From NCBI GenBank assembly GCA_021371935.1, contig JAJFVF010000008.1, positions 1-64,000 of the forward strand: DNA of 64,000 bases. The letters are read 5' to 3'. How positions within the stretch are numbered: the stretch's first letter is position 1; each line of letters begins with the position of its first letter. Below the pieces are notes generated by a model. It had not been told where the DNA came from and searched no databases. It worked only from the letters and a program-made list of their open reading frames with translations. A program made the position numbers and the translations under genes. The DNA comes from a bacterium (lineage in GTDB: Bacteria > Armatimonadota > UBA5829). Below, in pieces: positions 4,049 through 58,586 of the stretch.

Positions 4049-7000
4049 ATGAGAGAAATTCAGCACAGGACCAAGCGTACCCCTGAGGCGATTGAACTGC
4101 CGAACTTGGTCGAGATTCAGCTCGACTCCTACAAATGGTTTCTTCGGGAAGGGCTGAGAGAGCTGTTTCATAGTTTTTCACCCATACATGACTTCACGGG
4201 CAATCTGTCCCTGGAACTGTTAGACTACTCCCTTGGTGACCCGAAATACACTGTAGAAGAGTGCCGTTATCGGGACATGACCACTTTTGAAGCTCCGATC
4301 AAAGCGCGTGTTCGCTTGACGGCGGCGGAGAAGGAGGTTATCGAGAGCGAAGTATATCTCGGTGATCTTCCGTTAATGACCGAAAAGGGCACTTTCGTTA
4401 TAAACGGCGCTGAGCGTGTTGTCGTCAGCCAGCTTGCACGTTCACCCGGCGTATATTTCAAGGACACTCTTGACTATTCCGGACGAGTGCTCTACTTTGC
4501 CACGATAATTCCCAGCCCAGGCGCTTGGATCGACATCGAGACTGATGCAAACGATGTCATTACTGTGCATGTTGCCCAGACAAAGAAGTTCCCTCTGACG
4601 ACTTTCCTGCGGGCTTTGAACCTGTTTGAGCCGGCGTGTCCCAAGTCGGAGATGCTGCCCGCGTATGAGGCGATAGGTAGAACTTTGGCTGCCGACAAGG
4701 TCAACAAGGAGACCGGTGAGGTTCTCTTTGAGGCCGGCGCTGTCGTCGATGAGAAGATGGCCAAAAAGCTCCACTCTCTGCATTCAGAGAGTGTTGAGGT
4801 TGGGACCAAGGGTCATAACAGCGGCTCCACGACTGAAATCCTGGACATTTTCAGTATCAAGGAGACGATCACCGATGTAAGCGCAGACATGGTCCGTGGT
4901 TTTCGTCCAACAAAGGACATCAAGGACCCGAAGACGGACAAAATACTTGTCAAGGCGGGCGAAAAGATCGGTGATGATGCAGCCAAGAAGATTGAAAAAT
5001 TCGCTCTAAAGCATCTTGAGGTCTACATTCCGAACCGCTATATCGATGCAACGCTCGATCAGGATCCGGCTCATGACATGGACGAAGCCTTGATCGACAT
5101 ATATCACAGGATCAGACCTGGTGACCCGGCGACTCGCGACTCGGCGACCAGCCTGATGAACTCGTATTTCTTCGATACACGTCGATATGACCTTGCGCGG
5201 GTAGGGCGCTACAAACTCAACAAGAAGCTGGGTTTGAACCTGCCTGAGCATGTCAGAGCGGTCACCCGCGAAGATATAATCAAGATCATACAATACATAA
5301 TCGGCCTTTCCGAGGCAGGTTCACTGGTAGCGCATCTCAACACTGCGAACCTTGCAAAGCGCCTGCCTGAGCTTGAGGAGGCCGTCAAGGCCGATGCCAA
5401 GTCGGCATCCAAAGAGGACAAAGCTCTCGGCGGACGTGTTTCCCAGTTCAAGAGACATCTTGAAACGCTGAAACACATCAAGCTCGGAGATATGATAACC
5501 GAGGACGATCTCAAGGAGATGAGGCGAATGCTCGACCTTATCCCCAACGGTAACCGTCTGATCTCCGACACTCCAGCGGAGCTTTACTCCGAGACGGCGA
5601 TAAGACTTGTGGCCTGTTCGACTGACGATATCGACCACTTGGAAAACAAGCGTGTCCGCTCAGTCGGTGAACTTCTTCAGGATCAGCTCAGAATGGGCTT
5701 TTTGAGGATGGAGAAGGTCGCCAAGGAGAGGATGACGAGCCTGGACCCTGAGAACGTGATCCCGCAGGTCATCCTGTCGGTCAAGCCGATATCGGCAAGC
5801 ATAAGGAGCTTCTTCCAGTCAAGCCAGCTCTCGCAGTTTATGGACCAGACCAACCCTCTGGCCGAGCTTACGCACAAGCGCAGGCTTTCGGCTCTGGGTC
5901 CCGGCGGTCTATCCAGACAGAGCGCCAAGCTCGAGGTCCGAGATGTCCACCACTCGCACTATGGCCGAATCTGTCCGATTGAGACCCCTGAAGGTCCGAA
6001 CATCGGTCTGATCGGTTCTATGGCGATTCACGCTAAGATAGACGAATATGGTTTCTTGCGCAGTCCTTATCGCATCGTAAAGAACGGTAAAGTCACGAAT
6101 GACCTGGTCTATCTTTCTGCGGACGAGGAGAGCCAGGAGTATATCGCTCCGGCCAACACTCCTTTGGATCAGGAGACTGGTGAGATCACTGCTGCAACGG
6201 TTGTAGTGCGGCATGAGAACACATATCCGCAGGTCGCCGCGAACAAAGTGACCTATATGGACGTCTCTCCGATGCAGATCATGTCGGTAGCGACGGCGAT
6301 GATCCCATTCCTTGAGAACGATGACGCAAACCGCGCTCTGATGGGCTCGAACATGCAGCGTCAGGCTGTGCCGCTGTTGCGTGGTGATGCTCCCATCGTG
6401 CGAACGGGTATAGAGGGGCGTGCAGCTCGTGACTCGGGCGCCGTCATTATAAATAAGAGAGACGGCATTGTCCGATATTCGACCGCCGAGAAGATTCTGG
6501 TCGAGGCCGAGGACGGCACGATAGATGAATATCATCTCATAAACCTCCTGCGCTCGAATCAGGGCACATGTATCACGCAAAAGCCTATAGTCAAGCCCGG
6601 CAAGCGGGTTCGCGCGGGCGAAGTGATTGCTGATGGACCATGCACAGACGGCGGCGAGTTGGCGCTAGGCCAGAACATTCTGGTTGCGTTTATGCCGTGG
6701 AACGGTTACAACTACGAAGACGCCGTTTTACTTAGCCAGAGGCTGGTTAAGGACGACATTTTTACCTCGATCCATATAGAGAAGTATGAGACCGAGGCTC
6801 GCGATACCAAGCTTGGTCCTGAAGAGATCACCCGTGACATTCCGAATGTCGGCGAAGATGTGTTGAAGGATTTGGACTCCAACGGCATCATCCGCATAGG
6901 AGCCGAGGTAAGGCCTGAAGACATTTTGGTCGGCAAGGTTGCTCCCAAAGGTCAAGGCGAGTTGACGGCGGAAGAGAGACTGATTATCGCGATCTTCGGT

Positions 7001-8567
7001 AAGAAAGCCGAGGAGACCCGCGACGTATCGCTGAGAGTTCCTCACGGCGAGACCGGCACGGTTGTCGACGTCAAGGTCTTCAGCCGGTTCAAGTATAAGT
7101 GCAGCCGGTGCGAGGCTGTCTTCGATTATAGTAAGAAACCTGAGCGCATGCTCTGCGAAAGATGCGATGGCGAACTGGTCCGTGAGCCTGGCGACGAACT
7201 TCCGGCGGGCGTAAACCAGCTTGTCAGGTGTTATATCGCCCAGAAGCGCAAGGTTATGGAAGGCGACAAAATGGCAGGCCGCCATGGCAACAAGGGTGTC
7301 ATTTCAAAGATACAGCCCGAGGAAAACATGCCATTCCTGCCGAACGGCAAGCCTGTCGATATAGTGCTTAATCCTCTCGGGGTTCCGAGCCGAATGAACA
7401 TTGGTCAGATTTTGGAGACTCACCAGGGTCTGGTAGGTAAGCACCTTGGCTGCAAGTATAAGAACCCGATTTTCCAGGGTGCAACTGAGACCGAGATAGT
7501 GACTGATCTCCAGGTGTTGGCCTGGAAACTCAGGATTGGCGTTCTGAGGGACTATGCCAAGGAACTCGGTATCGAGGCCGAGGTTGTCAGTGAGAAGCAA
7601 GTCGACTCGGTGGTCAGGCATATACTCGGCAGACTGCCCGAGATAACTTCTGGTGATTTGGGTGCCGAGGTCCAGCAAATTATCGATTTGTATAATAAGG
7701 GTGTTGAAAGTATCAGACAGCACATCAAAACATTTGACCTGGCCGAGCTTGAGACTCTTAGTATCAAGCTGGCAGGACCTGTTGCCGCGGACGATCCGCT
7801 GTCGCTGCGGGAGGCTCTTTCTGAGAGGCTCCGACGCGAAAACGAGGCTCGAATTGCTGCAAGCGGACCTGATGATGAAGAAGATTCAGAGTTAGAGATG
7901 GGGTCAGAGTCTGAGCCGGAAGAGGAACTGTCCGAGTTGGTGATTCCCTATGTAGGAAATAAAGCTCCAAAGGGCTATGACTATGAGGCATTGATTTCTG
8001 CAATTGAGGATAACGTCCAGAAGCGCATGGGTCTCAATGAGAACACCGGCAAGAGCGCGCTTTACGACGGTCTCACCGGCCAGAAGTTCAGCCAGGATGT
8101 CACGGTCGGTTACATATACATGTTGAAATTGGCGCACCTTGTCGAGGACAAGATACACGCCCGGTCCACCGGACCATACTCTTTGGTCACTCAGCAGCCA
8201 TTGGGCGGAAAGGCTCAGTTCGGTGGTCAGAGGTTCGGAGAGATGGAGGTCTGGGCATTGGAGGCCTATGGCGCTGCCTATACGCTCCAGGAAATACTAA
8301 CTATCAAGAGCGACGACGTTCAAGGCCGCGTCAAGACATACGAATCCATAGTCAAGGGCGACAACATACTTGAGCCTGGAGTGCCGGAATCGTTCAAGAT
8401 TCTGGTAAACGAGCTTCAGAGCCTTGGTCTGAAGGTATCAGTCGAGGATGACAGAGACCGGGTTATCGATCTCAAGGACACCGAAGACGAGCTTTCGGAG
8501 GGGCATGAGGGCGGAGTAATATCTGCGAAGCGTCGCAAGAAGGTTCTGGAACTCAGGGAGGATCTCA

Positions 8568-8575
<8 letters not shown>
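4049..8575 (+). CDS. rpoB: DNA-directed RNA polymerase subunit beta
   Basis: Beta subunit of RNA polymerase, 1508 residues. The rifampicin-pocket region (about residues 590-625) reads '[20 protein letters not shown]' and '[10 protein letters not shown]' with no known resistance substitution, so the enzyme should be sensitive. '[15 protein letters not shown]' marks the catalytic centre region. Two lineage-type insertions are notable. The first is a zinc-ribbon-like segment with C1018, C1021, C1036 and C1039, placed between '[11 protein letters not shown]' and '[11 protein letters not shown]', where many beta subunits have only a few residues. The second is an acidic linker around residue 1275 before the C-terminal anchor. 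AGGAGG at 4039-4044 precedes the ATG. The stop overlaps the rpoC start by 8 nt, so the two are translationally coupled. Confidence 0.99.
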
Positions 8576-12941
<4,366 letters not shown>

Positions 12942-26805: not shown

Positions 26806-27375
26806 ATGCGAAGGGTGTTCGTAATAGTTTTTTGTGCTGTAATTATCTGTTGTGCTATTGCAGTTTCAGCTGCCCCCACAACAGATTGGCGAGTCTGCTT
26901 GAGTGCATGCTACACGGGGGGACTTCAAAGTTCAACGTTCACTTGTGGAACTGGAACCTCCCCATACACTGTTATTGGTGATCCGCCTTCTTCGACACCT
27001 GTGTTGGGTGAAGAATTCGACTCTTTTCACTTGATAACGACGGATATTCGTTCGCCACTCTCTCCAGGTGAGTCAACTAGCTGGTATCCAATTCTCGCTT
27101 GCGGCGACGGAATGGTTTTACCGATAAAGCTCACTATATCTAGAATGACTCCTGTTCAATATCTAGACATTTCGTTTTGGATGGACGGTGTATTTTATTA
27201 CCAGCTTGAGGCATATGAGACTATTTCATTTGAATTATTTTTTGACCCCATTTCGCCTTCTGATTCACACCAATTCGAGATTAGAGCAACGGCTGTGCCT
27301 GAGCCGGGTAGTTTGTGCTGCATACTGGCAGGTCTTGTGGGTTTTGCAACACATAAATGTCGACGGCGCAAATAA
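26806..27375 (+). CDS. Secreted PEP-CTERM protein, unknown function
   Basis: 189 residues: signal peptide ('VFVIVFCAVIICCAIAVSA'), a beta-rich domain of about 130 residues without recognised family, and a C-terminal sorting signal 'VPEPGSLCCILAGLVGFATHKCRRRK'. Six or more cysteines occur, several in the signal and anchor helices. A+T-richer codon use than the neighbours. It has its own promoter and terminator, so it is a single-gene unit. AGGAACAAG-type site before the ATG is moderate. Confidence 0.75.
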   Translation: MRRVFVIVFCAVIICCAIAVSAAPTTDWRVCLSACYTGGLQSSTFTCGTGTSPYTVIGDPPSSTPVLGEEFDSFHLITTDIRSPLSPGESTSWYPILACGDGMVLPIKLTISRMTPVQYLDISFWMDGVFYYQLEAYETISFELFFDPISPSDSHQFEIRATAVPEPGSLCCILAGLVGFATHKCRRRK

Positions 27376-47308: not shown

Positions 47309-48070
47309 ATGGCAGATAAAGAGCAGTCACAAGACCAACTGATAGACATTCTCAAAAAGTCCAGGAATGTCTTTGTTTTTACGGGAGCCGGTGTCAGCAA
47401 GGAGTCGGGCCTGCCCACATTCAGGGACCTCGACGGCGAGTGGACCAAGTATGATCCAATGACTTTTGCCACACTCGATGGTTTTCTGCATAACCCGGTT
47501 ATGGTCTGGAACCTATATCGTACCCGCCAAAAGCAGATAGCAGCAGCCCAGCCCAATCCCGGTCATGTGGCCATAGCTCAGATGGAGAGTTATTACCCGG
47601 AGTTTCTGCTGTGCACTCAGAATGTCGATGATCTGCATGAGCGCGCGGGCAGCCGTAAGATAGTGAAGATTCATGGCGATGTAACAAAGGTCAGGTGCAT
47701 TGACTGCGGACGGACTCATATGGTGGCGGATTATGATTTCCCCGATGAATTTGATGATGACAGCCTGCCGAAGTGCAGTGGATGTGGAGGATTGTGCAGG
47801 CCGGATATAGTGTGGTTCGGCGAATATGTTCCTCAGGAAGCGTTTATTGCCTCGACTATGGCCGCGACCGAGTGCGACCTGATGCTTATTGTCGGCACGT
47901 CCGGGGAGGTCTCAGGCGGATACGGGTTTGCCGAGCGTGCGATACACCACGGCGCGAAGATAGTCGAAGTCAACCCCACTCAAGGCGCACTCACACACTA
48001 TGCGCATTTTTGGATACCCGAACCTGCCGGTGTCGCTCTTCCGCACATATGGGAGCTTGTGACGGCATAA
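47309..48070 (+). CDS. cobB: NAD-dependent protein deacylase (Sir2 family)
   Basis: Sirtuin, 253 residues, which removes acyl groups from lysine and cleaves NAD. Rossmann motif 'VFTGAGVSKESGLPTFRD', 'TQNVDDLHERAGS', catalytic His in 'IVKIHGDVTKV', zinc cysteines 'RCIDCGRTH' and 'PKCSGCGG', 'RPDIVWFGEYV' and 'LMLIVGTSGEVSGG' are all present. It lacks the Tyr/Arg pair of the desuccinylase type (not seen in 'LYRTRQKQIAAAQPNPGH' context, where HxA is 'GH'). Small, single-domain and zinc-bearing, hence a housekeeping sirtuin, not a defence SIR2. It is 2 bp behind the MPE-PHP gene. Confidence 0.93.
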   Translation: MADKEQSQDQLIDILKKSRNVFVFTGAGVSKESGLPTFRDLDGEWTKYDPMTFATLDGFLHNPVMVWNLYRTRQKQIAAAQPNPGHVAIAQMESYYPEFLLCTQNVDDLHERAGSRKIVKIHGDVTKVRCIDCGRTHMVADYDFPDEFDDDSLPKCSGCGGLCRPDIVWFGEYVPQEAFIASTMAATECDLMLIVGTSGEVSGGYGFAERAIHHGAKIVEVNPTQGALTHYAHFWIPEPAGVALPHIWELVTA

Positions 48071-48259: not shown

Positions 48260-48338
48260 CTAACCCGGATTATGCGCATACCGCATAATCCGGGTCTTTG
48301 AGAGCATTATTCACGTTCCTCGTGAATAATGCGGACTA
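48260..48338 (-). repeat. R1 double-hairpin element, copy d (inverted)
   Basis: CCCGGATTATGCG (48264-48276) / CGCATAATCCGGG (48282-48294), then GCATTATTCACG (48304-48315) / CGTGAATAATGC (48321-48332). Opposite orientation to the other copies. It ends 29 bp before the nurA ATG. Confidence 0.9.
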
Positions 48339-48367
48339 ACGTATGTTCGCATCCTATGGAAGGTGAA

Positions 48368-49378
48368 ATGAGCGAACTTCTCAGAAATTTATCCTCATAT
48401 GTCCACGCTCAAGCCGAGCGCGATATTCACGTCGTTCTGGCTCGCAATGACCTCGATGAGATGCCCATGATTCTGGCCGCAGCCGAGCCTCGACAGGCCG
48501 GATCCGACCTCGAGGGCAGGAATATAGATGCGGTCCCGGTAGGCGAGGCGGAGCATGGCAAGCTGGCGTATTTCATGGACGGAATGCAGCGCCCGCGTGG
48601 ACCAATATACTTCGGCTCGCAGCTTCCGATGATGTATGGATATGTCGCAGCGACAATCCGCGTGCGCGGTGAGGATCGCCGCATGCGCAAGCACGACTTC
48701 CTTCGCAGAGAGTCACTTTATTTTCCGTATGATTTTCCGGGTGCGCCGGTGGAGCTTGCAAGCTCGGGGTTCGATACTGTGGATACCGGTGAGCGCGGTA
48801 AGTCGCCTGAGGAGCACCCGCTGATTGTGATTGAGCGTGCGGAGAAGAAAGTAAGTGACATCCGTTCCGATCTTGAGAGCAGAATCACATCGAAGTGGCT
48901 CTCCGATTTTGATGGTAGGGATGATTGGCTTCTGGTAGACGGCTCCCTGAGCGGCGACTATCACAGGTACGACTCGCCAAATATAGTCGGATTGATAAAA
49001 AGCCACCAGACACAGTATTTTCTGTGGGAAGATCAGCAAAAGATTCTGAGTCTCAAGACCGGCGAGCGCAGCGGAGTATTCATACCCAAGGGCCGCAATC
49101 GTCCGGATGTGTACAGCTGGTATCTGCGCCTTCGCCCCAATGACGGCCGCGACGTCTATTTTGGCCTGGTGCGTGTCGAGGCAGCCAAATGCGAGCGGAC
49201 ACTGGAGATGGCGGATGAGATATCACGATGGCTGCTGGCTGAGAGAAGCCCGCTGAGCATGCCGGACGCCAGGTGGGATAGACTGATCTACCCGATCCAT
49301 GACTGCGAGCTATACATGAAGAGCGTTGCGCCGAGTCATACATCTCTCGATTCTCTTATGATCAGCCTCGCTCACTGA
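48368..49378 (+). CDS. nurA: NurA-type 5'-3' nuclease of DNA end resection
   Basis: NurA is an RNase H-fold nuclease that works with the HerA translocase and Mre11-Rad50 to resect DNA ends in archaea and some bacteria. The 336-residue product shows candidate active-site blocks: 'AYFMDGMQRPRG' (D71), 'LLVDGSLSGDYHR' (D191), 'VGLIKSHQTQYF' (Lys motif), 'VYFGLVRVEAAK' and 'DRLIYPIHDCELYMKS' near the end. These match the layout I expect of NurA (motif DG, second DGS, late Arg/Glu and YP..H blocks). ATG at 48368 follows GGAAGGTGA (48358-48366); longer in-frame starts run into the R1 repeat. HerA and Mre11-Rad50 genes follow. Confidence 0.78.
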   Translation: MSELLRNLSSYVHAQAERDIHVVLARNDLDEMPMILAAAEPRQAGSDLEGRNIDAVPVGEAEHGKLAYFMDGMQRPRGPIYFGSQLPMMYGYVAATIRVRGEDRRMRKHDFLRRESLYFPYDFPGAPVELASSGFDTVDTGERGKSPEEHPLIVIERAEKKVSDIRSDLESRITSKWLSDFDGRDDWLLVDGSLSGDYHRYDSPNIVGLIKSHQTQYFLWEDQQKILSLKTGERSGVFIPKGRNRPDVYSWYLRLRPNDGRDVYFGLVRVEAAKCERTLEMADEISRWLLAERSPLSMPDARWDRLIYPIHDCELYMKSVAPSHTSLDSLMISLAH

Positions 49379-49531
49379 GTCAAATCGATCTATACAATGA
49401 TCTGGGACAGCATGTCTAGTATTTTATGGATTTCTGTTTAATAAGATGCTTGATGCTTTATTTGTCTTGCATATTTTGCTAATGTAATGCAATCTCAAGT
49501 TTAGTAGTTATGGGCGACTGAGCAAGGGAAA

Positions 49532-50497
49532 ATGCCAAAGACAAGAGATACAGATTTTGTTGAAAGAATGGGCGTGCACCATACAGGTGATATTTTTGCA
49601 CGTGCTGGAGTTATTTTTCGCGAAACTCAATGCAGTGATACTGGCATTGATGCAGAGATAGAACTGGTGCATGATGGATATGCGTCAGGGCAATTGGCAA
49701 AATTGCAGATAAGGAGTGGTGATTCACGATTAGATCTTAGTAGTAAAACATTCAAGTTTTCGGATAACCTAGAGCATTATGAATATTGGGCAAGATATAC
49801 ACTTCCAACAATTGGAGTAGTTTATAGTCCATCTCTTGACACAGCGGTCTGGTTTGATTTGTCTGAACAATCAAGGCATATAGTAAGCACTCAAGGACCA
49901 TATACGATAAACATTCCTCTGACTAACAATAGCCGTTTGGATGTGAAGAACATATCGGGTTCATTGTCGGACATTATTGAGTCATTCTCGATTCAGCCAG
50001 CCTCTCTATCTGCAGTAAAAGAAGTTTCGGTTGATGCTGCCAACGATCACATTGTCGGACCAGATGGACTTACCAAAGAACAAGCATGGAAATATCTTAC
50101 AAATGTATTGCTTACATCTGATAGTGCGTCTGATGTCCGAGCAGAAGCTGGGTATCGCTTGTCCTTGTACTTCCCGGCAGTTTCAGAAGAATTGCAGAAG
50201 TTCTTTGTAGAGCGAATATCTAATGCCACAGATAAGGAAATTGCCAACATAGTGATTGCCATTCAAGATGCGTTGTCTTCAGAGCAAGACGATGTAGCAG
50301 ACCTGATAATTGACCTTTTGTCTTATATGCCATACCCCGTGGAGAAGCTAAAGGAGATAGGATATAAGCGTATAGTGTCGGAAGAAGCTCTGGAAGCGCT
50401 TATTCAATCAGTGGAAGTAATGTCGCAAGAATTCGACAGTGATTTCCGAAATGAAATACTGAATATTTATAGAACAGTGGACACTAGTAAAGACTAA
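49532..50497 (+). CDS. DUF4365-like (PD-(D/E)XK-type) domain protein, probable inserted gene
   Basis: 321 residues, not a housekeeping family. Residues 10-65 read 'FVERMGVHHTGDIFARAGVIFRETQCSDTGIDAEIELVHDGYASGQLAKLQIRSGDS' in short pieces that fit DUF4365: D36, D40, E42 or E44, and Q59 before the catalytic Lys position, which here is Arg (R61). DUF4365 is a restriction-endonuclease-like fold often linked to phage-defence proteins. The C-terminal half (about 170-321) is a helical domain. Third codon positions are rich in A and T, unlike the flanking nurA and herA, so it looks acquired. AAGGGA precedes the ATG. Confidence 0.6.
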   Translation: MPKTRDTDFVERMGVHHTGDIFARAGVIFRETQCSDTGIDAEIELVHDGYASGQLAKLQIRSGDSRLDLSSKTFKFSDNLEHYEYWARYTLPTIGVVYSPSLDTAVWFDLSEQSRHIVSTQGPYTINIPLTNNSRLDVKNISGSLSDIIESFSIQPASLSAVKEVSVDAANDHIVGPDGLTKEQAWKYLTNVLLTSDSASDVRAEAGYRLSLYFPAVSEELQKFFVERISNATDKEIANIVIAIQDALSSEQDDVADLIIDLLSYMPYPVEKLKEIGYKRIVSEEALEALIQSVEVMSQEFDSDFRNEILNIYRTVDTSKD

Positions 50498-50551
50498 GGA
50501 TTCATATAAAACTCATTTGATATCCATGTCGCCACTTTACGGAGCATAAAA

Positions 50552-52540
50552 ATGGAGCAGGAAAACCTTATACAAGTCGGTCGAGTGGTAGCCACCGAGG
50601 CAAAGCCAAGCACTGCCTACAGTTTCAGCTTCTGGGCAGCCGAGGGCGATTGTAAAGTCGGCATCGGCACTCTGGTCATGGTCAAAAAGGGCGATCTTGA
50701 GGTCTACGGAGTCGTAGTGGAGGGGTTCGGATTTACCGATCTCAACTCAGCAATGAACGATTACATCGGCTCAGAGGGCGATCCGGGTTCTGAAGCTCCT
50801 ACACTTCGCCATGAGGTGCGATGTTATACTGCGGCTGTGCTGCGTGTAGAGCCTGAGGAGCCGCTGCAGCCCGTGCCCGTAGCGCCTGTGTATCTGGCGG
50901 ATGATTTAGTAGTCAGAAATGCCCTGCGCATGGACGGCTTCTGGGAAAAGAGCGGCATCCCGATAGGCCTGTATCAGAACGGCGACCTGCTCTCACCTGT
51001 TTACCTGGACTCCGAGTTCCTGCTCGGCCCCGAAGCGGCGCATCTCAATATTACGGGCGTCTCGGGGTTGGCCACCAAGACCAGCTCAATCGAGTTTATC
51101 CTGCTGAGCATTTTCGAGCACTTCAAGGACCATGATGACGACGGCATTGCGGTGGTCTGTTTCAATGTCAAGGGTCCCGATATGCTCTTCCTGGATTTTC
51201 CGGGCAAGGTCGATAAGTCCAGCCAATATCATGAGCTGTATAAGCAGCACGGCATAGATACGATAGACGACCGTGACGCCGAGATGTATAAGCTGCTCGG
51301 TATGCCGTGCGAGCCGTTCAAGAAAGTGAAGTATTTTGCGCCGTTCAAGTCCGACAGGGTGAACCTCAACACTCTGCGCACCAATGCCGACCTGGTCGGT
51401 GACGTCACGCCCCTCTCGTGGGGTCTGACAGATATTCTTGAGTTTACGGAAGTCGTGTTGAACCGTGACGATGTGGATGCCAAAGCCGATGCCCTGATCT
51501 CATATATCAAGGATCGTGTGGTTAATCAGACCATCGAGGTCAACGGCCAGCAGATCACCGTGCGCAACTTCCAGGACATGAACCACTGGTTCGATATGGT
51601 CTTAAAAGAAATGGAGCAGAGCAACCGTTCCGAATGGAAGACCCATCACTACGCCACCATCCGCAAGGTCTACAATCGCCTCTCGAACCTCAGCACCCGA
51701 TATCAGGGTCTGGTCAGCCCGGACGAGTTCAGGTCGGACCTGCCTTGGGGTGATTTCGAGGACCGCGCAGTGTATGTTGTTGATGTCGCCAATGTCGATC
51801 CGCAGGCGCAGGATTTGGTCTTCACCAGGATCGTGAGTCAGCTCAGACAGAGGCTCGAAAAGGGCGATTTGGGCGTGAAGCACGTGATAGTGGTGGTGGA
51901 CGAGCTCAATAAATACGCTCCGTCAGACGGTCAGGAGACCTACCTCAAACAGACCCTGCTCGATATATCCGAGCGCGGGCGTTATCTGGGGCTGGTGCTC
52001 TTCTCGGCGCAGCAGTTCCGCAGCCAGGTGCACAAGCGCATTGTCGGCAACTCAGCGACATGCATATATGGTCGTATGGATATGGACGAACTCGCCACAC
52101 CAGGCTACCAGGTCCTCACCTCTGCCACGAAGGAGAAACTGGCGACACTCTCTAAGGGTCAGTTGATGGTCCGCCATCCGCACTTTAACCAGCCGATATT
52201 CGTGAAGTTCCCGAGGCCCAATATACTGCGCGGGCCGGACGGCATCAAGATGTTCCCTCCGGCGAATGACCTGCCTCTTGAGGAGGCTGTATGGCGGAAT
52301 CTGAACCGTCTGGATGGCGGTGTAAGCCGCAATGATGTCAGCGATATAGTCTCATCAGCGGCTGACACGACTGAGATAGTGCGTGCGATGAACATAACTC
52401 TTCAACGCAAGCCCGATGACCCGGTCAGCCATTTCAGGAACTGTGTGCGCAAGAAAGCAGGCGTCCAGATGACACCCGATGCCAAGCCGAGCTTTATCCC
52501 TGTTCTCGATCCCGACCCGAACGACCCCTTTCAGGATTGA
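50552..52540 (+). CDS. herA: HerA-like DNA translocase ATPase
   Basis: HerA is a hexameric FtsK-like ATPase that drives the NurA nuclease along DNA. 662 residues: an N-terminal HAS-barrel ('QVGRVVATEAKPSTAYSFSFWAAEG...GTLVMVKKGDLEVYGVVVEG'), Walker A-like 'NITGVSGLATKTSS' (K176), Walker B 'VIVVVDELNKYAP' (D450, E451), sensor region 'LVLFSAQQFRSQV' and an arginine-finger-type 'CIYGRMDM'. The Thr before the Walker Lys ('ATKTS') is the form I know from bacterial HerA proteins. Adjacent NurA, Mre11 and Rad50 genes support function. GGAGC lies before the ATG. Confidence 0.85.
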   Translation: MEQENLIQVGRVVATEAKPSTAYSFSFWAAEGDCKVGIGTLVMVKKGDLEVYGVVVEGFGFTDLNSAMNDYIGSEGDPGSEAPTLRHEVRCYTAAVLRVEPEEPLQPVPVAPVYLADDLVVRNALRMDGFWEKSGIPIGLYQNGDLLSPVYLDSEFLLGPEAAHLNITGVSGLATKTSSIEFILLSIFEHFKDHDDDGIAVVCFNVKGPDMLFLDFPGKVDKSSQYHELYKQHGIDTIDDRDAEMYKLLGMPCEPFKKVKYFAPFKSDRVNLNTLRTNADLVGDVTPLSWGLTDILEFTEVVLNRDDVDAKADALISYIKDRVVNQTIEVNGQQITVRNFQDMNHWFDMVLKEMEQSNRSEWKTHHYATIRKVYNRLSNLSTRYQGLVSPDEFRSDLPWGDFEDRAVYVVDVANVDPQAQDLVFTRIVSQLRQRLEKGDLGVKHVIVVVDELNKYAPSDGQETYLKQTLLDISERGRYLGLVLFSAQQFRSQVHKRIVGNSATCIYGRMDMDELATPGYQVLTSATKEKLATLSKGQLMVRHPHFNQPIFVKFPRPNILRGPDGIKMFPPANDLPLEEAVWRNLNRLDGGVSRNDVSDIVSSAADTTEIVRAMNITLQRKPDDPVSHFRNCVRKKAGVQMTPDAKPSFIPVLDPDPNDPFQD

Positions 52541-52787
52541 GTAATTAGGATTTAGTAATTAGTATTTTGTATTGATTATTGTTTTGGTGTGTATTGAGAT
52601 GCCTGCCTGTTCCCTCTCCTGGGGGAGAGGGTTAGGGTGAGGGCGCTATCTGATTTAGTGATTGATATTTTGTATTGATTATTTCGAGCGACGTCTCAAT
52701 CCCAGTCATTCCGAGGAGGAACGACGAGGAATCTGCTGTGCGCTAAGTGGTAAGTAAGAATAAATCTCGATTTCCAGGACAAAGAAT
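52541..52787. repeat. Repeat-filled gap between herA and the KAP gene
   Basis: Contains TTAGTAATTAGTATTTTGTA phrase (52553-52572), R4 (52611-52645), a second TTGATATTTTGTATTGATTA phrase (52663-52682) and R5 (52701-52740). The same phrase-R5 order occurs at 42530-42612. The KAP-LRR gene starts directly behind it. Confidence 0.75.
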
Positions 52788-54962
52788 ATGCCACAAAAAA
52801 GCACAAAAGACCTAAATACTGATTTTGATTTAATTCCATTAATCGAAGATCAGCCTATTGATGATCTAGAACACGATTATCTTGGCCTGATGCCCTGGGC
52901 AAAGATGATTGCCGGTTCGGTCGTTGGTACGCGTGGACCTTTCACTATTGGTGTCCATGGTGAGTGGGGTTATGGCAAGACGACTCTTCTAAAGTTGACT
53001 AAGGCACTCATTGACGAGCATCACCAAGACGTTGTCACAGTGTGGTTCAATGCTTGGCAATTTGAACGGGAGGAACATCCACTTTTTCCACTTGTAGCTG
53101 CCATCGCGGATGAGATTGAAAAGAAAGTTGACAAAAACGAATCACTGGAAGCTCTCAGCAAAGTGGGCGCATCAATTCGAGCCTTAGCTCGTGGAATGAA
53201 GTTCTCCGGTGAAGTCGGAATGCCTCTTGTTGGCAAAGTTGGTGTAGAGTTTGATGCGGACAAAGCTCTCAAAGCAGAAGAGCTGATTGGAAACCAGTCA
53301 AATCCTCTTCAAGGGGAGATGATGTATCACTCTGCTTTTGAAATGCTCGAGAAAGTTGCTCGTGATGGAAGCAAAGTAAAGATAGCTGTATTTGTAGATG
53401 ATCTGGATCGCTGCCAGCCGGATAAGGCCGTTTTTTTACTTGAAAGTATAAAGCTTATTCTTGCGCAACCTGGGTTTGTATTTGTGCTTGCTGTTGATAG
53501 GCGTCCAATAGAGGGATATCTTCAAAAGCGATACCGTGATCACTTTGATGGCAAAGAAGGTGATTGGGGCCGTTTCTATATGGAGAAGATAATCCAGTTA
53601 CCTATCCCCATTCCTAGTCATCGAACCAGATTTAATGATTTTGTTAAACGGACTGTTACAGATGTTGCTGATAAACATGGAGCAACGCAACAGCAGATAA
53701 AAGCACTACTGAATATTCAGCCGGTGTTAGCCTGTGGTGCAGAAACAAACCCGCGGAGCCTGATAAGGCTGATCAATAACTTTTTACTTGATTGTAGTCT
53801 TTGGCAGCTCATTGATCGTAGTGGCGACGCTAATCTGTCTAAGTATCAGGAACTTACACAAGACATTGCTGCCGCCTTGGCTTTTAATAGAATTCTTGAT
53901 CATCTTCTAGGCGATTTATATGCTGAGCTTATCAATGATGAATTGCTATGTGGTGCAATAGAAATGAATGCTTTAGATCGCATTGGATCAGTTGAGTCTC
54001 TTCAAAATGAGGCTTCTACGAATGTGCATGAGGATGATCGTAGAGAAACATCTAAGCGTTTAGGAATTATAGACAAGTTATCTACGCATCCGGAATTACT
54101 TGATGCTTTGCGTTCCCAGGGTGAATCATGGCTTACAGATATTGAACTTCGACGAGCAGTTCGTGATTTTGCACAGACGCAACGTGCTACAGGTTTTTCT
54201 CCAGATTTTGCAGATACAATTGCACAAGCGATTAGAAAAGAATTAGATATCGAAGATGGTGATATTATTCCAGTTGGTCGGCTTGACGAGATTGAGAATC
54301 TCGACCTCAATTGTGCTCATGTGACAGATAAGGACATACGTCAATTCAAGACGTTAACTGGCCTCAGGGTGCTAAATCTAGCTGGTACGCTAATTACAGA
54401 TATAGGACTGAAGCACATCGGTAAGTTGATCGAATTACAAGAACTATTTCTTAATGATACGCTTATAACCGATATCGGATTAAAGTACCTTGGCTCTTTA
54501 AGCCATTTGCAAGTATTAAATCTTGGCCGTGCGAATATTACTAATAAAGGAATGCAAAATATTAAGGACTTGAATGGTTTATTGAAACTTACTATACATG
54601 CTACTAATATTACCGATGAAGGATTGAAATGTCTGGGTGATTTTACAGAACTGCAGAGTTTAGTGCTGAGTGGCAATCATATAACGAATGATGGGTTGTC
54701 TTATCTTAGAGACCTTACAAAACTGAATGAATTAGTTCTGAGTGATACGCATATTAATGATTTGGGCTTGAAGTACCTTGAAAAAATGACAAGACTTAGG
54801 CATCTATACCTTAGTGGTCTTTCTAATGTCACTGACATTGGATTGAATAATCTCGTGGGGTTATCAGAATTGCACATATTGCACGTCGAGCGTACTGGCG
54901 TTACGGAGAAAGGGATACTGGAGCTACAAAAGAAACTTACGCAACTAAGAATAATAGACTAA
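52788..54962 (+). CDS. KAP-family P-loop NTPase with C-terminal leucine-rich repeats
   Basis: 724 residues. KAP (STAND-related) NTPase domain from about residue 25: Walker A 'GVHGEWGYGKTTLL' (K64), 'VTVWFNAWQFEREEHPL', Walker B 'AVFVDDLDRCQPDKAVFLLESIKLIL' (D204, D205, D207), 'FVFVLAVDRRPIEGYLQKRY' and 'YMEKIIQLPIPIP' are classic KAP blocks. From about residue 500 at least eight leucine-rich repeats follow, of the form 'LTGLRVLNLAGTLITDIGLKHIGKL', ending in a capping repeat. The architecture resembles NLR-type receptors and anti-phage STAND proteins. It is A+T-rich, unlike the neighbours, and sits between herA and sbcD, so it is probably a mobile defence gene. No membrane helices inside the KAP domain are obvious. 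Confidence 0.82.
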   Translation: MPQKSTKDLNTDFDLIPLIEDQPIDDLEHDYLGLMPWAKMIAGSVVGTRGPFTIGVHGEWGYGKTTLLKLTKALIDEHHQDVVTVWFNAWQFEREEHPLFPLVAAIADEIEKKVDKNESLEALSKVGASIRALARGMKFSGEVGMPLVGKVGVEFDADKALKAEELIGNQSNPLQGEMMYHSAFEMLEKVARDGSKVKIAVFVDDLDRCQPDKAVFLLESIKLILAQPGFVFVLAVDRRPIEGYLQKRYRDHFDGKEGDWGRFYMEKIIQLPIPIPSHRTRFNDFVKRTVTDVADKHGATQQQIKALLNIQPVLACGAETNPRSLIRLINNFLLDCSLWQLIDRSGDANLSKYQELTQDIAAALAFNRILDHLLGDLYAELINDELLCGAIEMNALDRIGSVESLQNEASTNVHEDDRRETSKRLGIIDKLSTHPELLDALRSQGESWLTDIELRRAVRDFAQTQRATGFSPDFADTIAQAIRKELDIEDGDIIPVGRLDEIENLDLNCAHVTDKDIRQFKTLTGLRVLNLAGTLITDIGLKHIGKLIELQELFLNDTLITDIGLKYLGSLSHLQVLNLGRANITNKGMQNIKDLNGLLKLTIHATNITDEGLKCLGDFTELQSLVLSGNHITNDGLSYLRDLTKLNELVLSDTHINDLGLKYLEKMTRLRHLYLSGLSNVTDIGLNNLVGLSELHILHVERTGVTEKGILELQKKLTQLRIID

Positions 54963-55011
54963 GTTCCATTTAGTCTTTTGCATGTATTACATTCAAACTT
55001 TTTAACTAACC

Positions 55012-56151
55012 ATGAAAATCGCACACATAGCGGACCCCCATCTGGGCTACCGCGCATACAACAGAATAACCAGCCAGGGCATAAACCGCCGCGAAGCTGA
55101 TGTCTTCCAGGCGTTCAGGCAGGCACTCGCCAAGGTAATCGAGATAGACCCGGATGTAATTTTAATCGCCGGGGACATGTTTCACGTCGTCCGTCCGAGC
55201 AACCTCACCATCCAACAGACTTTCCGCGAGTTCACCAATCTGAGAAACAAGACAGCCGCACCTGTCGTGATAATCGGCGGCAACCACGACTCGCCCCGCT
55301 CGACAGATACCGGCTGCATACTGGATTTGTTCGCAAACGTGCCGGATGTATACGTTGCGCACTCAGAGTATGTGCAAGTTAAACTCGATAACTTGCACAT
55401 GTCTGTATTCTGCCTCTGCCATAGAGCGCTGCCGAATTTGAATTCACTCAAGATAGAGCCTGACACGTCGAGTAAGTACAATGTGCTGATGGTTCACGGC
55501 ACACTCGAGGGCGTGATACACAATGCCTACGATCTTTATGAGATCAGGCGTGACCAGGTGATATCGGACGCCTGGGATTATATAGCCTTTGGCCACTATC
55601 ACGTGTTCGAGGAGCTTGCGCCGAATGCATACTATGCAGGGTCGACAGAGTACACCAGCACCAATATCTGGAGTGAGACCAAACAGCCCAAGGGCCTGAT
55701 TGAGTATGACCTCGATGAGCATAAGCTGGTCGATTTCCATAAGATAGACACTCGTGATGTAATCGACCTTCGCCCGATAGATGCGGCAGGTGTAGTCGCT
55801 GGTGACCTTAACACAATGATCCAGCGCAAGGTTGAGAGCATCAAGGGCGGTTATGAGGACAAGATTGTTAGACTTGTAGTCGAAAACTTGCACAGGTCTG
55901 TGCAAGCGGACCTTGATTTCTCACTAATACGCCAGGTCAGATCAGAGGCTCTGCATTTCGAGCTTCAACTTCGTCCTCCCAGCCGTGATGGCCGGACTCT
56001 TACTTCGGCGTCGGAGTCGGGTGCGGCTAAGCCTCTGGAAGAGGAGTGGGATGAGTTCGCGAAAGTCTACGACATTCCTGCAGGCGTCGACCGCGAGCGG
56101 TTTGTAGACCTTGGCCGGGATTATCTGATCAAAATGGCACAGTCAGAATGA
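55012..56151 (+). CDS. sbcD: Mre11/SbcD-type DNA repair exonuclease
   Basis: Mn-dependent 3'-5' exo- and endonuclease of DNA-break processing. 379 residues. Phosphoesterase motifs: 'KIAHIADPHLGYRAYN' (I), 'DVILIAGDMFHVVRPSN' (II), 'VVIIGGNHDSPRSTDTG' (III), 'NVLMVHGTLEG' (IV) and 'WDYIAFGHYHVFE' (V). The C-terminal part holds the Rad50-binding region. Stop codon overlaps the rad50/sbcC ATG by 4 bp. No Shine-Dalgarno is visible before the ATG, only the A+T-rich end of the KAP gene. It follows the archaeal HerA-NurA-Mre11-Rad50 arrangement. Confidence 0.93.
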   Translation: MKIAHIADPHLGYRAYNRITSQGINRREADVFQAFRQALAKVIEIDPDVILIAGDMFHVVRPSNLTIQQTFREFTNLRNKTAAPVVIIGGNHDSPRSTDTGCILDLFANVPDVYVAHSEYVQVKLDNLHMSVFCLCHRALPNLNSLKIEPDTSSKYNVLMVHGTLEGVIHNAYDLYEIRRDQVISDAWDYIAFGHYHVFEELAPNAYYAGSTEYTSTNIWSETKQPKGLIEYDLDEHKLVDFHKIDTRDVIDLRPIDAAGVVAGDLNTMIQRKVESIKGGYEDKIVRLVVENLHRSVQADLDFSLIRQVRSEALHFELQLRPPSRDGRTLTSASESGAAKPLEEEWDEFAKVYDIPAGVDRERFVDLGRDYLIKMAQSE

Positions 56152-58586
56152 AATTAATAAGCCTTGAACTCAAAAACTTTAGACAGCATATCGATTCGTC
56201 GATCACCTTCACCGACGGCGTGACCGGCATCATCGGTCCAAACGGCGCGGGCAAGTCCACAGTGCTGGAGGCTCTCGCGTGGGCGCTCTATGGCGCGCCC
56301 GCAGTCCGCGGGACAAACGACACTATCCGCACCAAGGCAAGCGAGGGTGGGGCAAAGGTCGGCGTGAACCTCACGTTCGAGCTTGGTGGTTCGGTCTATA
56401 AAGTGGCGCGCACGCTTGACAGTCATGGCAAGTCGGGTACGGCTGTATTGGAAGTCGATGGCCGTCCACTGCGCTCGGGCATGACTGAGGTTTCCGAGTC
56501 GGTCACAAAGCTGCTCGGCATGGATTACCGCGCATTCTTCACGAGTTTCTTCACGGGTCAGAAGGCTCTGGAGTTTATGGCTTCGATGGACGGTCGAGCG
56601 CGTGCGGCTTCTATAGGCAAGATGCTGGGTTATGACCGGGTCACCAAGGCTCGCGACAAGGCAAATGAGGATCGCAAGGGTCTGAACCGTGAGATTGAGG
56701 GACTGGAAAAGGGTCTTGCCGACCCGGAGGAGCTTAAGGAGCGCAAGAAAGAGGCCAATGCACGGCTTGCTATGGCTAAATCGTCTCTTGCCGAGGCCGA
56801 GAGAGTCCAAAAGACATCGGCTGAGGCAGTTGACAAGCTCAAACCGATGAAAGAGGCTTCGGATCAAAAGTCGAAGCGCTTCGATGAGATATCGCGCAGA
56901 CTGGAGTTCGACCGTGCGGATGTCAAACGTTCCGGGGACCGCATGACCCAGATCAAGGCCGAGCTTGCCGATATGGAGTCGAAACAGAAGGAACTTGATG
57001 CTCTGGCGCCAAAGCTGGATGAATTCGAGCAGGCAAAGGTCGAATATCGAAAATTGGCGGAGCTTCAAAAACATGAGGGCGACCGCCAGCGTTTGGTTGG
57101 TCAGATTGCAGCGATTGAGCAGGATATCAAGCGTTTGCAGTCGCGTGAGAGGGAACTGGCTAGGGTGGACGAGGGTCAACTGCGCGCATCTGCGGCGCTT
57201 GCAGCGGGTGAGCAGGCTCTTGCCAAGTCCGAAGAGATGCTGCGCACGGCAAGAGAGCAAAGAATAGCACAGGAGCATACTGACAAGGCGCAGATAAATA
57301 ATCTCATGTCACGACAGGCTGAGATCGAGGCCAAACGTGCACAGATTGCCGAGGCGGGAGCCAAGGGCGCATGCCCGACATGCGAGAGACCGCTTGGTGA
57401 CGAACTGCCCACAGTACTAGCCAATTTCGATGCTCAAATAAAAGATATCACTGACCAGATCGCACAGGTACAGAGTAATACTGCTGCGCGTAAGTCTGAC
57501 TCAGCGCAGATTCAGAAGATGGAAGCAGAGCGCGCAAACTTTGCAGCCCAGATCGAAAAGCTCAGAAATGAAAAAGCTGCTGCAGATGCGCTTGTTGCGG
57601 AGAAAAAGAGTCTTGGTGAGCAGATACATTCGCGCATGGCTGAACATGATTCCATGCGAAAGCAAATCGAATCGATCCCAGGTGGTTTCGATCAGACCAG
57701 GTATGCCGAACTGCGTAAGGCGGGCGACGAACTTCGTCCATTTCATGATCGTGCCATAGCCTTGAAGTCGGCTTTGGAACGCCTGCCTGCTGTCCGCACA
57801 GAGATTTCAGAACTTGAAGCAGGACTCGCAGCCCGGGTAAAGGAGATTGAGGAGTCACAGAAGACTCTGGCGGACCTTGCGTTTTCGCCGGATGACCGCG
57901 AGAAGCTCATGCGTGAGTATGAAGAGGCGACTGCCGCGCTGAATGCGTCTGCTCTTCAGCTCGAACGCGAGCATGGTGAGGTAAATATCGCGAGTGCGCT
58001 GCATACTGCAATCGAGCGTGAGGAGGAGCAGTATAAGTCCAGGATGGAGGGTCTGAAGCATAAGCGCTCGGAGCGCTTGCATTTGGAGACTCTTGCCCAA
58101 GCAATGGATAAGCTCAGAGCCGAACTCAACGACAGAATTCGCCCCGAGCTTGAGGCCATAGCAAGCGAGCTTCTGGCAATGATGACTGACGGCCGCTACG
58201 ATACACTTGAGATCAACGACAGCTACCAGGCCACCATCCGTGACGACGGCGAACTCAAACCGGTAATTTCAGGCGGTGAGGATGATATAGTGAACCTGGC
58301 GCTGAGGTTGGCGATATCTCAGATGATAGCCGATAGGGCAGGGCAGTCTTTCTCACTGCTGGTTTTGGACGAGGTATTCGGTTCGCTGGATGACAGCCGC
58401 CGTGACAATGTGATATCTCTCCTGCAAAACCTCAAGAACAGATTCGAGCAGATAATCTTGATTACTCACGTAGAGTCGATCCATGATGCTGTGGATAACT
58501 GTTTGTGGGTAGCTTTTGACGAGCGTACAAAGACAAGCCGACTCATCGACCGCATCGAGCAGCCTCTGGCCGGCATCACGCTATAG
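56148..58586 (+). CDS. sbcC: Rad50/SbcC-type ATPase of DNA repair
   Basis: SMC-like ATPase, 812 residues: short compared with E. coli SbcC (about 1050) and near the size of archaeal Rad50. Walker A 'GIIGPNGAGKSTVLEALAWALYG' (K36) at the N-terminus, then long coiled coils to both sides of a zinc hook 'GACPTCERPLGDE' (C409, C412), then signature 'VISGGEDDIVNLALRLAIS', Walker B 'LLVLDEVFGSLDD' and 'ILITHVESIHD'. The two cysteines fold against those of a second molecule. Its TAG stop (58584-58586) is part of R1 copy e. Confidence 0.95.
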   Translation: MKLISLELKNFRQHIDSSITFTDGVTGIIGPNGAGKSTVLEALAWALYGAPAVRGTNDTIRTKASEGGAKVGVNLTFELGGSVYKVARTLDSHGKSGTAVLEVDGRPLRSGMTEVSESVTKLLGMDYRAFFTSFFTGQKALEFMASMDGRARAASIGKMLGYDRVTKARDKANEDRKGLNREIEGLEKGLADPEELKERKKEANARLAMAKSSLAEAERVQKTSAEAVDKLKPMKEASDQKSKRFDEISRRLEFDRADVKRSGDRMTQIKAELADMESKQKELDALAPKLDEFEQAKVEYRKLAELQKHEGDRQRLVGQIAAIEQDIKRLQSRERELARVDEGQLRASAALAAGEQALAKSEEMLRTAREQRIAQEHTDKAQINNLMSRQAEIEAKRAQIAEAGAKGACPTCERPLGDELPTVLANFDAQIKDITDQIAQVQSNTAARKSDSAQIQKMEAERANFAAQIEKLRNEKAAADALVAEKKSLGEQIHSRMAEHDSMRKQIESIPGGFDQTRYAELRKAGDELRPFHDRAIALKSALERLPAVRTEISELEAGLAARVKEIEESQKTLADLAFSPDDREKLMREYEEATAALNASALQLEREHGEVNIASALHTAIEREEEQYKSRMEGLKHKRSERLHLETLAQAMDKLRAELNDRIRPELEAIASELLAMMTDGRYDTLEINDSYQATIRDDGELKPVISGGEDDIVNLALRLAISQMIADRAGQSFSLLVLDEVFGSLDDSRRDNVISLLQNLKNRFEQIILITHVESIHDAVDNCLWVAFDERTKTSRLIDRIEQPLAGITL

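Follow-up and report, generated by a model that had tools for sequence, protein, structure and literature searches.

A bacterial nurA-herA-mre11-rad50 operon with two probable cargo genes in an Armatimonadota genome

The six genes described here, from a bacterium of the Armatimonadota (UBA5829; GCA_021371935.1), very probably represent a housekeeping operon for DNA-end resection into which two cargo genes have been inserted. They lie in the window, the stretch of 64,000 nucleotides of contig JAJFVF010000008.1 that was analysed, which belongs to a 3.54 Mb assembly of 22 contigs. All six open reading frames are present on the forward (+) strand in the order nurA, DUF4365 gene, herA, KAP-LRR gene, mre11, rad50, as the original prediction, made from the DNA letters, had described in proposing a core set in one direction with two inserts. 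The DUF4365 gene ends 54 bp before herA and the KAP-LRR gene 49 bp before mre11, and with both inserts packed closely into the operon and facing the same way, co-expression is possible; scans for promoters and terminators gave results at chance level. Judged by sequence, the remaining four genes are an ordinary bacterial nurA-herA-mre11-rad50 resection operon, long conserved.

The most divergent member of the core is nurA (48329–49378, +), predicted to encode a bacterial NurA with an RNase H-like nuclease fold. Its true start is probably 48368, the position chosen in the original prediction, which agrees with the start of the closest homologues. Plain Pfam scans, PF09376 included, and NCBIfam scans did not detect NurA, so that the original NurA call fails in standard libraries; it stands with a family profile and a predicted fold. 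The profile, an alignment of 18 homologues searched against solved structures, matches the NurA of Deinococcus radiodurans (7f6d_H, 9e-5) and Thermotoga TM1739 (1zup, 9.6e-5) and, up to an E value of 10, nothing besides these two NurA proteins. An AlphaFold2 model with a mean pLDDT of 81.9 likewise aligns with D. radiodurans NurA (7f6d_G, Z 19.7) and 1zup (Z 18.8), and its best 11 structural matches are all NurA or the nuclease partner of TdpAB; Argonautes, which are RNase H-like too, align at Z of about 10. Residues D84, K224 and R315 are invariant in the 18 homologues. In the profile alignment K224 corresponds to K201 of D. radiodurans NurA, and D84 and R315 may correspond to D53 and R309, with which they are equated by motif position only. 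In one relative (G009, L059:1042-3087) the nurA frame runs into a long upstream extension, giving an open frame of 681 aa that is possibly a fusion or the result of a missing stop.

The herA gene (50552–52540, +) would encode a bacterial HerA hexameric translocase. It gives weak matches in plain HMM scans (DUF87, E 0.03; HerA_Thermprot, 6.6e-5), and a family profile aligns it with D. radiodurans HerA over positions 6–555, the HAS barrel and RecA core, at E 9.6e-81. Its Walker A (GVSGLATKTS) and Walker B (DELNK) motifs are present, and K176, T177, D210, D450 and E451 are invariant in 16 homologues. The unusual form of Walker A was considered as the mark of a new family, an idea that was rejected when it proved to recur in D. 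radiodurans HerA. For the D. radiodurans proteins, roles are known for K175, T176, D487 and E488 of HerA and K201, D53 and R309 of NurA (PMC9960219); the four HerA residues and NurA K201 have invariant counterparts here. The positions aligned with the basic pore residues R495 and R552 of D. radiodurans HerA (PMC9960219) are unconserved, so details of translocation may differ. The family profiles uphold both the NurA and the HerA assignment, and the predicted fold that of NurA. The other two core genes are readily recognized by their motifs. Mre11 (sbcD; 55012–56151, +; PF00149 Metallophos, 3e-13; Mre11_Sulfo, 7.7e-23) has the phosphoesterase motifs DPHLG, GD, GNHD, HG and GHYH, and Rad50 (sbcC; 56148–58586, +; Rad50 NF003034, 2.3e-71; AAA_23, Rad50 hook and SbcC Walker B matches) has Walker A, the zinc hook CPTC, the signature ISGG and the Walker B motif LLVLDE.

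From what is known of these families, Mre11-Rad50 would recognize and open broken or blocked DNA ends, and the HerA hexameric ring would drive double-stranded DNA into a dimer of the NurA nuclease, yielding 3′ tails for recombination. The DUF4365 and KAP-LRR genes would then be AT-rich cargo, acquired recently and in this lineage alone at two of the operon's junctions; they would have no particular partnership with the resection proteins, to which they are tied by location and perhaps by shared transcription. Whether HerA-NurA might replace AddAB-type nucleases was approached through PF12705 as a proxy for the latter, which is present in 242 of 251 genomes and is thus too widespread to discriminate; two long ORFs at 4049–12941 that were suspected to encode AddAB are actually RNA polymerase beta and beta'.

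The comparison with relatives is what carries the distinction between core and cargo. The genomes compared are mostly metagenome assemblies, in which apparent losses can be assembly gaps. Among 80 named public loci, 63 hold all four core genes (Armatimonadota and Gemmatimonadota), and in all 63 the order and strand of nurA-herA-mre11-rad50 are kept. Neither insert occurs in any of these 63 loci within the stretch that was fetched. The core genes are directly consecutive, without the inserts, in five genomes of the same genus or family (G001, G006, G007, G010 and G011) and likewise in two genomes of another family of the same class (G019 and G021). In the nearest relative (G004), whose HerA is 97% identical, the gap between nurA and herA is about 15 bp. 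Pairwise distances of herA, mre11 and rad50 correlate at r 0.97–0.98. The neighbourhood of the core is kept through the family and class as well, including a sir2 gene (47309–48070, + in the window) and, in several genomes, a subtilase gene. Sir2 adjoins nurA in G003, G005, G006 and G010, is separated from it by one gene in G004, and is displaced or inverted in G002, G011 and G013.

Composition sets the inserts apart from the core. The original prediction had described them as richer in A+T at third codon positions, and GC3 is indeed 0.340 for the DUF4365 gene and 0.336 for the KAP-LRR gene versus 0.60–0.69 for the four core genes; 42 other ORFs of the window have a GC3 of 0.587 ± 0.055, with a window mean of 0.59. 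One ORF elsewhere in the window (26806–27375; GC3 0.370), the only other one that is comparably low, is without a Pfam match and is possibly further recent cargo.

The first insert (49532–50497, +; PF14280, E 2.4e-21) is a DUF4365 gene of the DREN, PD-(D/E)XK type that is found in none of 27 relatives; two distant genomes of the phylum give a weak match to the first 120 residues of the protein only, within frames of 1,400 aa. It resembles the DUF4365 (DREN) effector nucleases of short Argonaute systems (PMC10810196) in its domain and in the glutamine of the QxK motif, for which Q62 and K64 were named as likely active-site residues in TmuRE (PMC10810196). In contrast to those effectors, the protein encoded here keeps the glutamine (Q59) and has R61 where the active-site lysine is expected, changing QxK to QxR, and no APAZ or Argonaute partner adjoins it. 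It therefore does not qualify as a SPARDA-type effector, with its QxR motif and neighbouring genes that give no Argonaute or APAZ domain match. The position of R61 is a lysine in the homologues from G144 and G074. The replacement of this lysine probably impairs catalysis, and the product is best regarded as a nuclease-fold protein of probably diminished activity.

The second insert (52788–54962, +; PF07693, E 8.5e-40; LRR_8, 1.2e-15) encodes a KAP P-loop NTPase with C-terminal leucine-rich repeats and an N-terminal part like that of QatA and PifA. Its KAP P-loop domain (residues 38–332), shared with the Qat ATPase QatA and with PifA, matches the QatA model at 1.2e-35. Unlike QatA, the protein has C-terminal LRRs, scores 123 bits against an equivalog cut-off of 600, and is without qatB, qatC or qatD beside it, its neighbours being nurA, the DUF4365 gene, herA, mre11 and rad50. 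Barring weak partial matches, the gene was not found in other members of the family. The best homologue, 65% over residues 10–400, lies beside ffh/rpsP in G016, on a different contig from herA, and strong homologues occur in five genomes that have no HerA match (G187, G139, G215, G148 and G131). Across 251 genomes of the phylum, HerA is present in 9 of the 34 with KAP/LRR proteins versus 49 of the 217 others (Fisher p = 0.66), and the occurrence of KAP-LRR and HerA is thus independent. The family resemblance suggests that the KAP-LRR protein is probably a stand-alone sensor-type ATPase of the defence kind.

These observations bear directly on the two alternatives that the original prediction had left side by side. 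According to one, the genes form an expanded system with the KAP-LRR protein as sensor and HerA-NurA-Mre11-Rad50 as the machinery that degrades foreign DNA; in a fuller version, the sensor would detect invading DNA or proteins of a phage and bring in these four proteins together with the DUF4365 nuclease. The resemblance of both inserts to defence proteins (QatA, PifA and the Aga/DREN nuclease) and their placement in the operon in the same direction make such a scheme attractive, but in other genomes the inserts show neither co-occurrence nor linkage, the DUF4365 protein has lost its active-site lysine, and the core is conserved without them. Because the inserts are absent from relatives or located elsewhere in them, it is very unlikely that the six genes are one new defence machine; the functional link proposed at the outset gives way before relatives whose core lacks both inserts and KAP-LRR homologues at unrelated places, the outcome that the original prediction had itself set as its refutation. 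The inserts occur in a single genome, so that a functional unit put together recently retains some slight probability. That the whole block of six genes is a mobile defence island is more improbable still and is refuted by synteny within the family: the foreign composition of both inserts would fit, but the core has a host-like GC3 and is maintained with its surroundings across the family and class, and plasmid searches returned distant matches to HerA, DUF4365 and KAP only, nothing that would suggest a mobile block of six genes. The other alternative, an operon that became host to defence cargo, agrees with the four genes kept without inserts in relatives and with the foreign composition of the inserts, and is the one we favor.

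A related possibility refines the cargo reading rather than competing with it, namely that the operon junctions, above all that between herA and mre11, are tolerated landing sites or a small spot of gene turnover. Other genes at the junctions of several relatives make this plausible, and we put it forward tentatively, as somewhat less likely than its negation. At the herA-mre11 junction the nearest relative has dispersed repeats in common with the window genome followed by a different gene of 294 aa, and G005 has a gene of 206 aa; in G002 two genes separate sir2 from nurA, one of them encoding an FRG-domain protein of 886 aa (L045:4843-7503). Dispersed repeats are found at the herA-mre11 junction in G000, G004 and G003. 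In the window the small repeats occupy 52600–52750 (+), between herA and the KAP-LRR gene, where one pair of two motifs (52612–52631 and 52707–52736) is located; the genome contains 28 copies of one motif and 17 of the other, often about 100 bp apart, and none of the reversed control patterns. Outside Armatimonadota, where nearly all loci are from Gemmatimonadota, the spacer between herA and mre11 is 400 bp or longer in 33 of 65 loci and holds mostly one secreted DUF6263-like family. Against the landing-site proposal, neither an integrase nor an attachment site or a target duplication was found. About 28 loci, almost exclusively from Gemmatimonadota (e.g., L097:10944-11819 and L114:10944-11759), encode the apparently secreted DUF6263-like proteins at this position.

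The history of nurA appears to differ from that of the other core genes. With mean distances of 0.51 for NurA, 0.29 for HerA, 0.40 for Mre11 and 0.50 for Rad50, NurA changes at about the pace of Rad50 and more quickly than HerA or Mre11. The NurA tree joins two members of the window's genus, G001 and G002, to G007 and G011, which belong to another genus (support 100/99), and a single clade for the window's genus is rejected (AU p 1.5e-4). The HerA tree clusters G001 and G002 with G005 and the window's genus and rejects the NurA grouping (p 1e-6), which Mre11 (p 6e-4) and Rad50 (p 3e-10) also reject for G001, G007 and G011. The loci concerned are the window nurA, L042, L045, L046 and L047. The conflict of the NurA tree with those of HerA, Mre11 and Rad50 indicates that nurA, unlike the other three genes, was probably exchanged on its own between lineages within the family. 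Such exchange raises the idea that NurA may be the target of a phage inhibitor and the operon a defence-linked locus. An operon under phage pressure, in which nurA alleles are swapped between genera while the other three genes stay and the junctions recurrently gain defence-type genes, is nevertheless an unlikely account.

The preferred reading, a resection operon with two cargo genes, disposes of the attractive but mistaken idea of a new defence system of many parts. In addition, it documents that a nurA-herA-mre11-rad50 operon is conserved in two phyla whose NurA escapes standard HMM libraries, and makes bacterial HerA-NurA, whose role in repair is debated (PMC9960219), testable outside Deinococcus and Thermus.

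Comparison with characterized systems places the core among known arrangements. The pairing differs from that of Sir2-HerA defence systems in that the HerA partner indicated by linkage is NurA, and the Sir2 encoded nearby is no defence-type SIR2 NADase but a CobB-type deacylase (NF001753, E 1.5e-78, 263 bits versus a cut-off of 243). Literature searches for KAP-LRR and DUF4365 with HerA returned no paper on the combination. The core shares with D. radiodurans HerA-NurA (7f6d, PMC9960219) the Walker A form GxSGxATKTS and the NurA fold at Z 19.7, from which its NurA differs in being very divergent: the two are 16–17% identical across the structural alignment, and the NurA here escapes Pfam. An archaeal herA-mre11-rad50-nurA operon has been known since 2004 (Constantinesco et al., as cited in PMC9960219), with the same enzyme families clustered as four genes on one strand; the present locus differs in its bacterial-type HerA and NurA, which are nearer those of Deinococcus, in its gene order, and in its two private cargo genes. 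A bacterial precedent is the nurA-hepA-sbcD-sbcC arrangement of Oceanithermus, where homologues of sbcD and sbcC were already reported downstream of the bacterial hepA (herA) (PMC5448004). Given that both the archaeal cluster and the Oceanithermus arrangement were already reported, the core of this operon extends a known kind of gene set to a new lineage.
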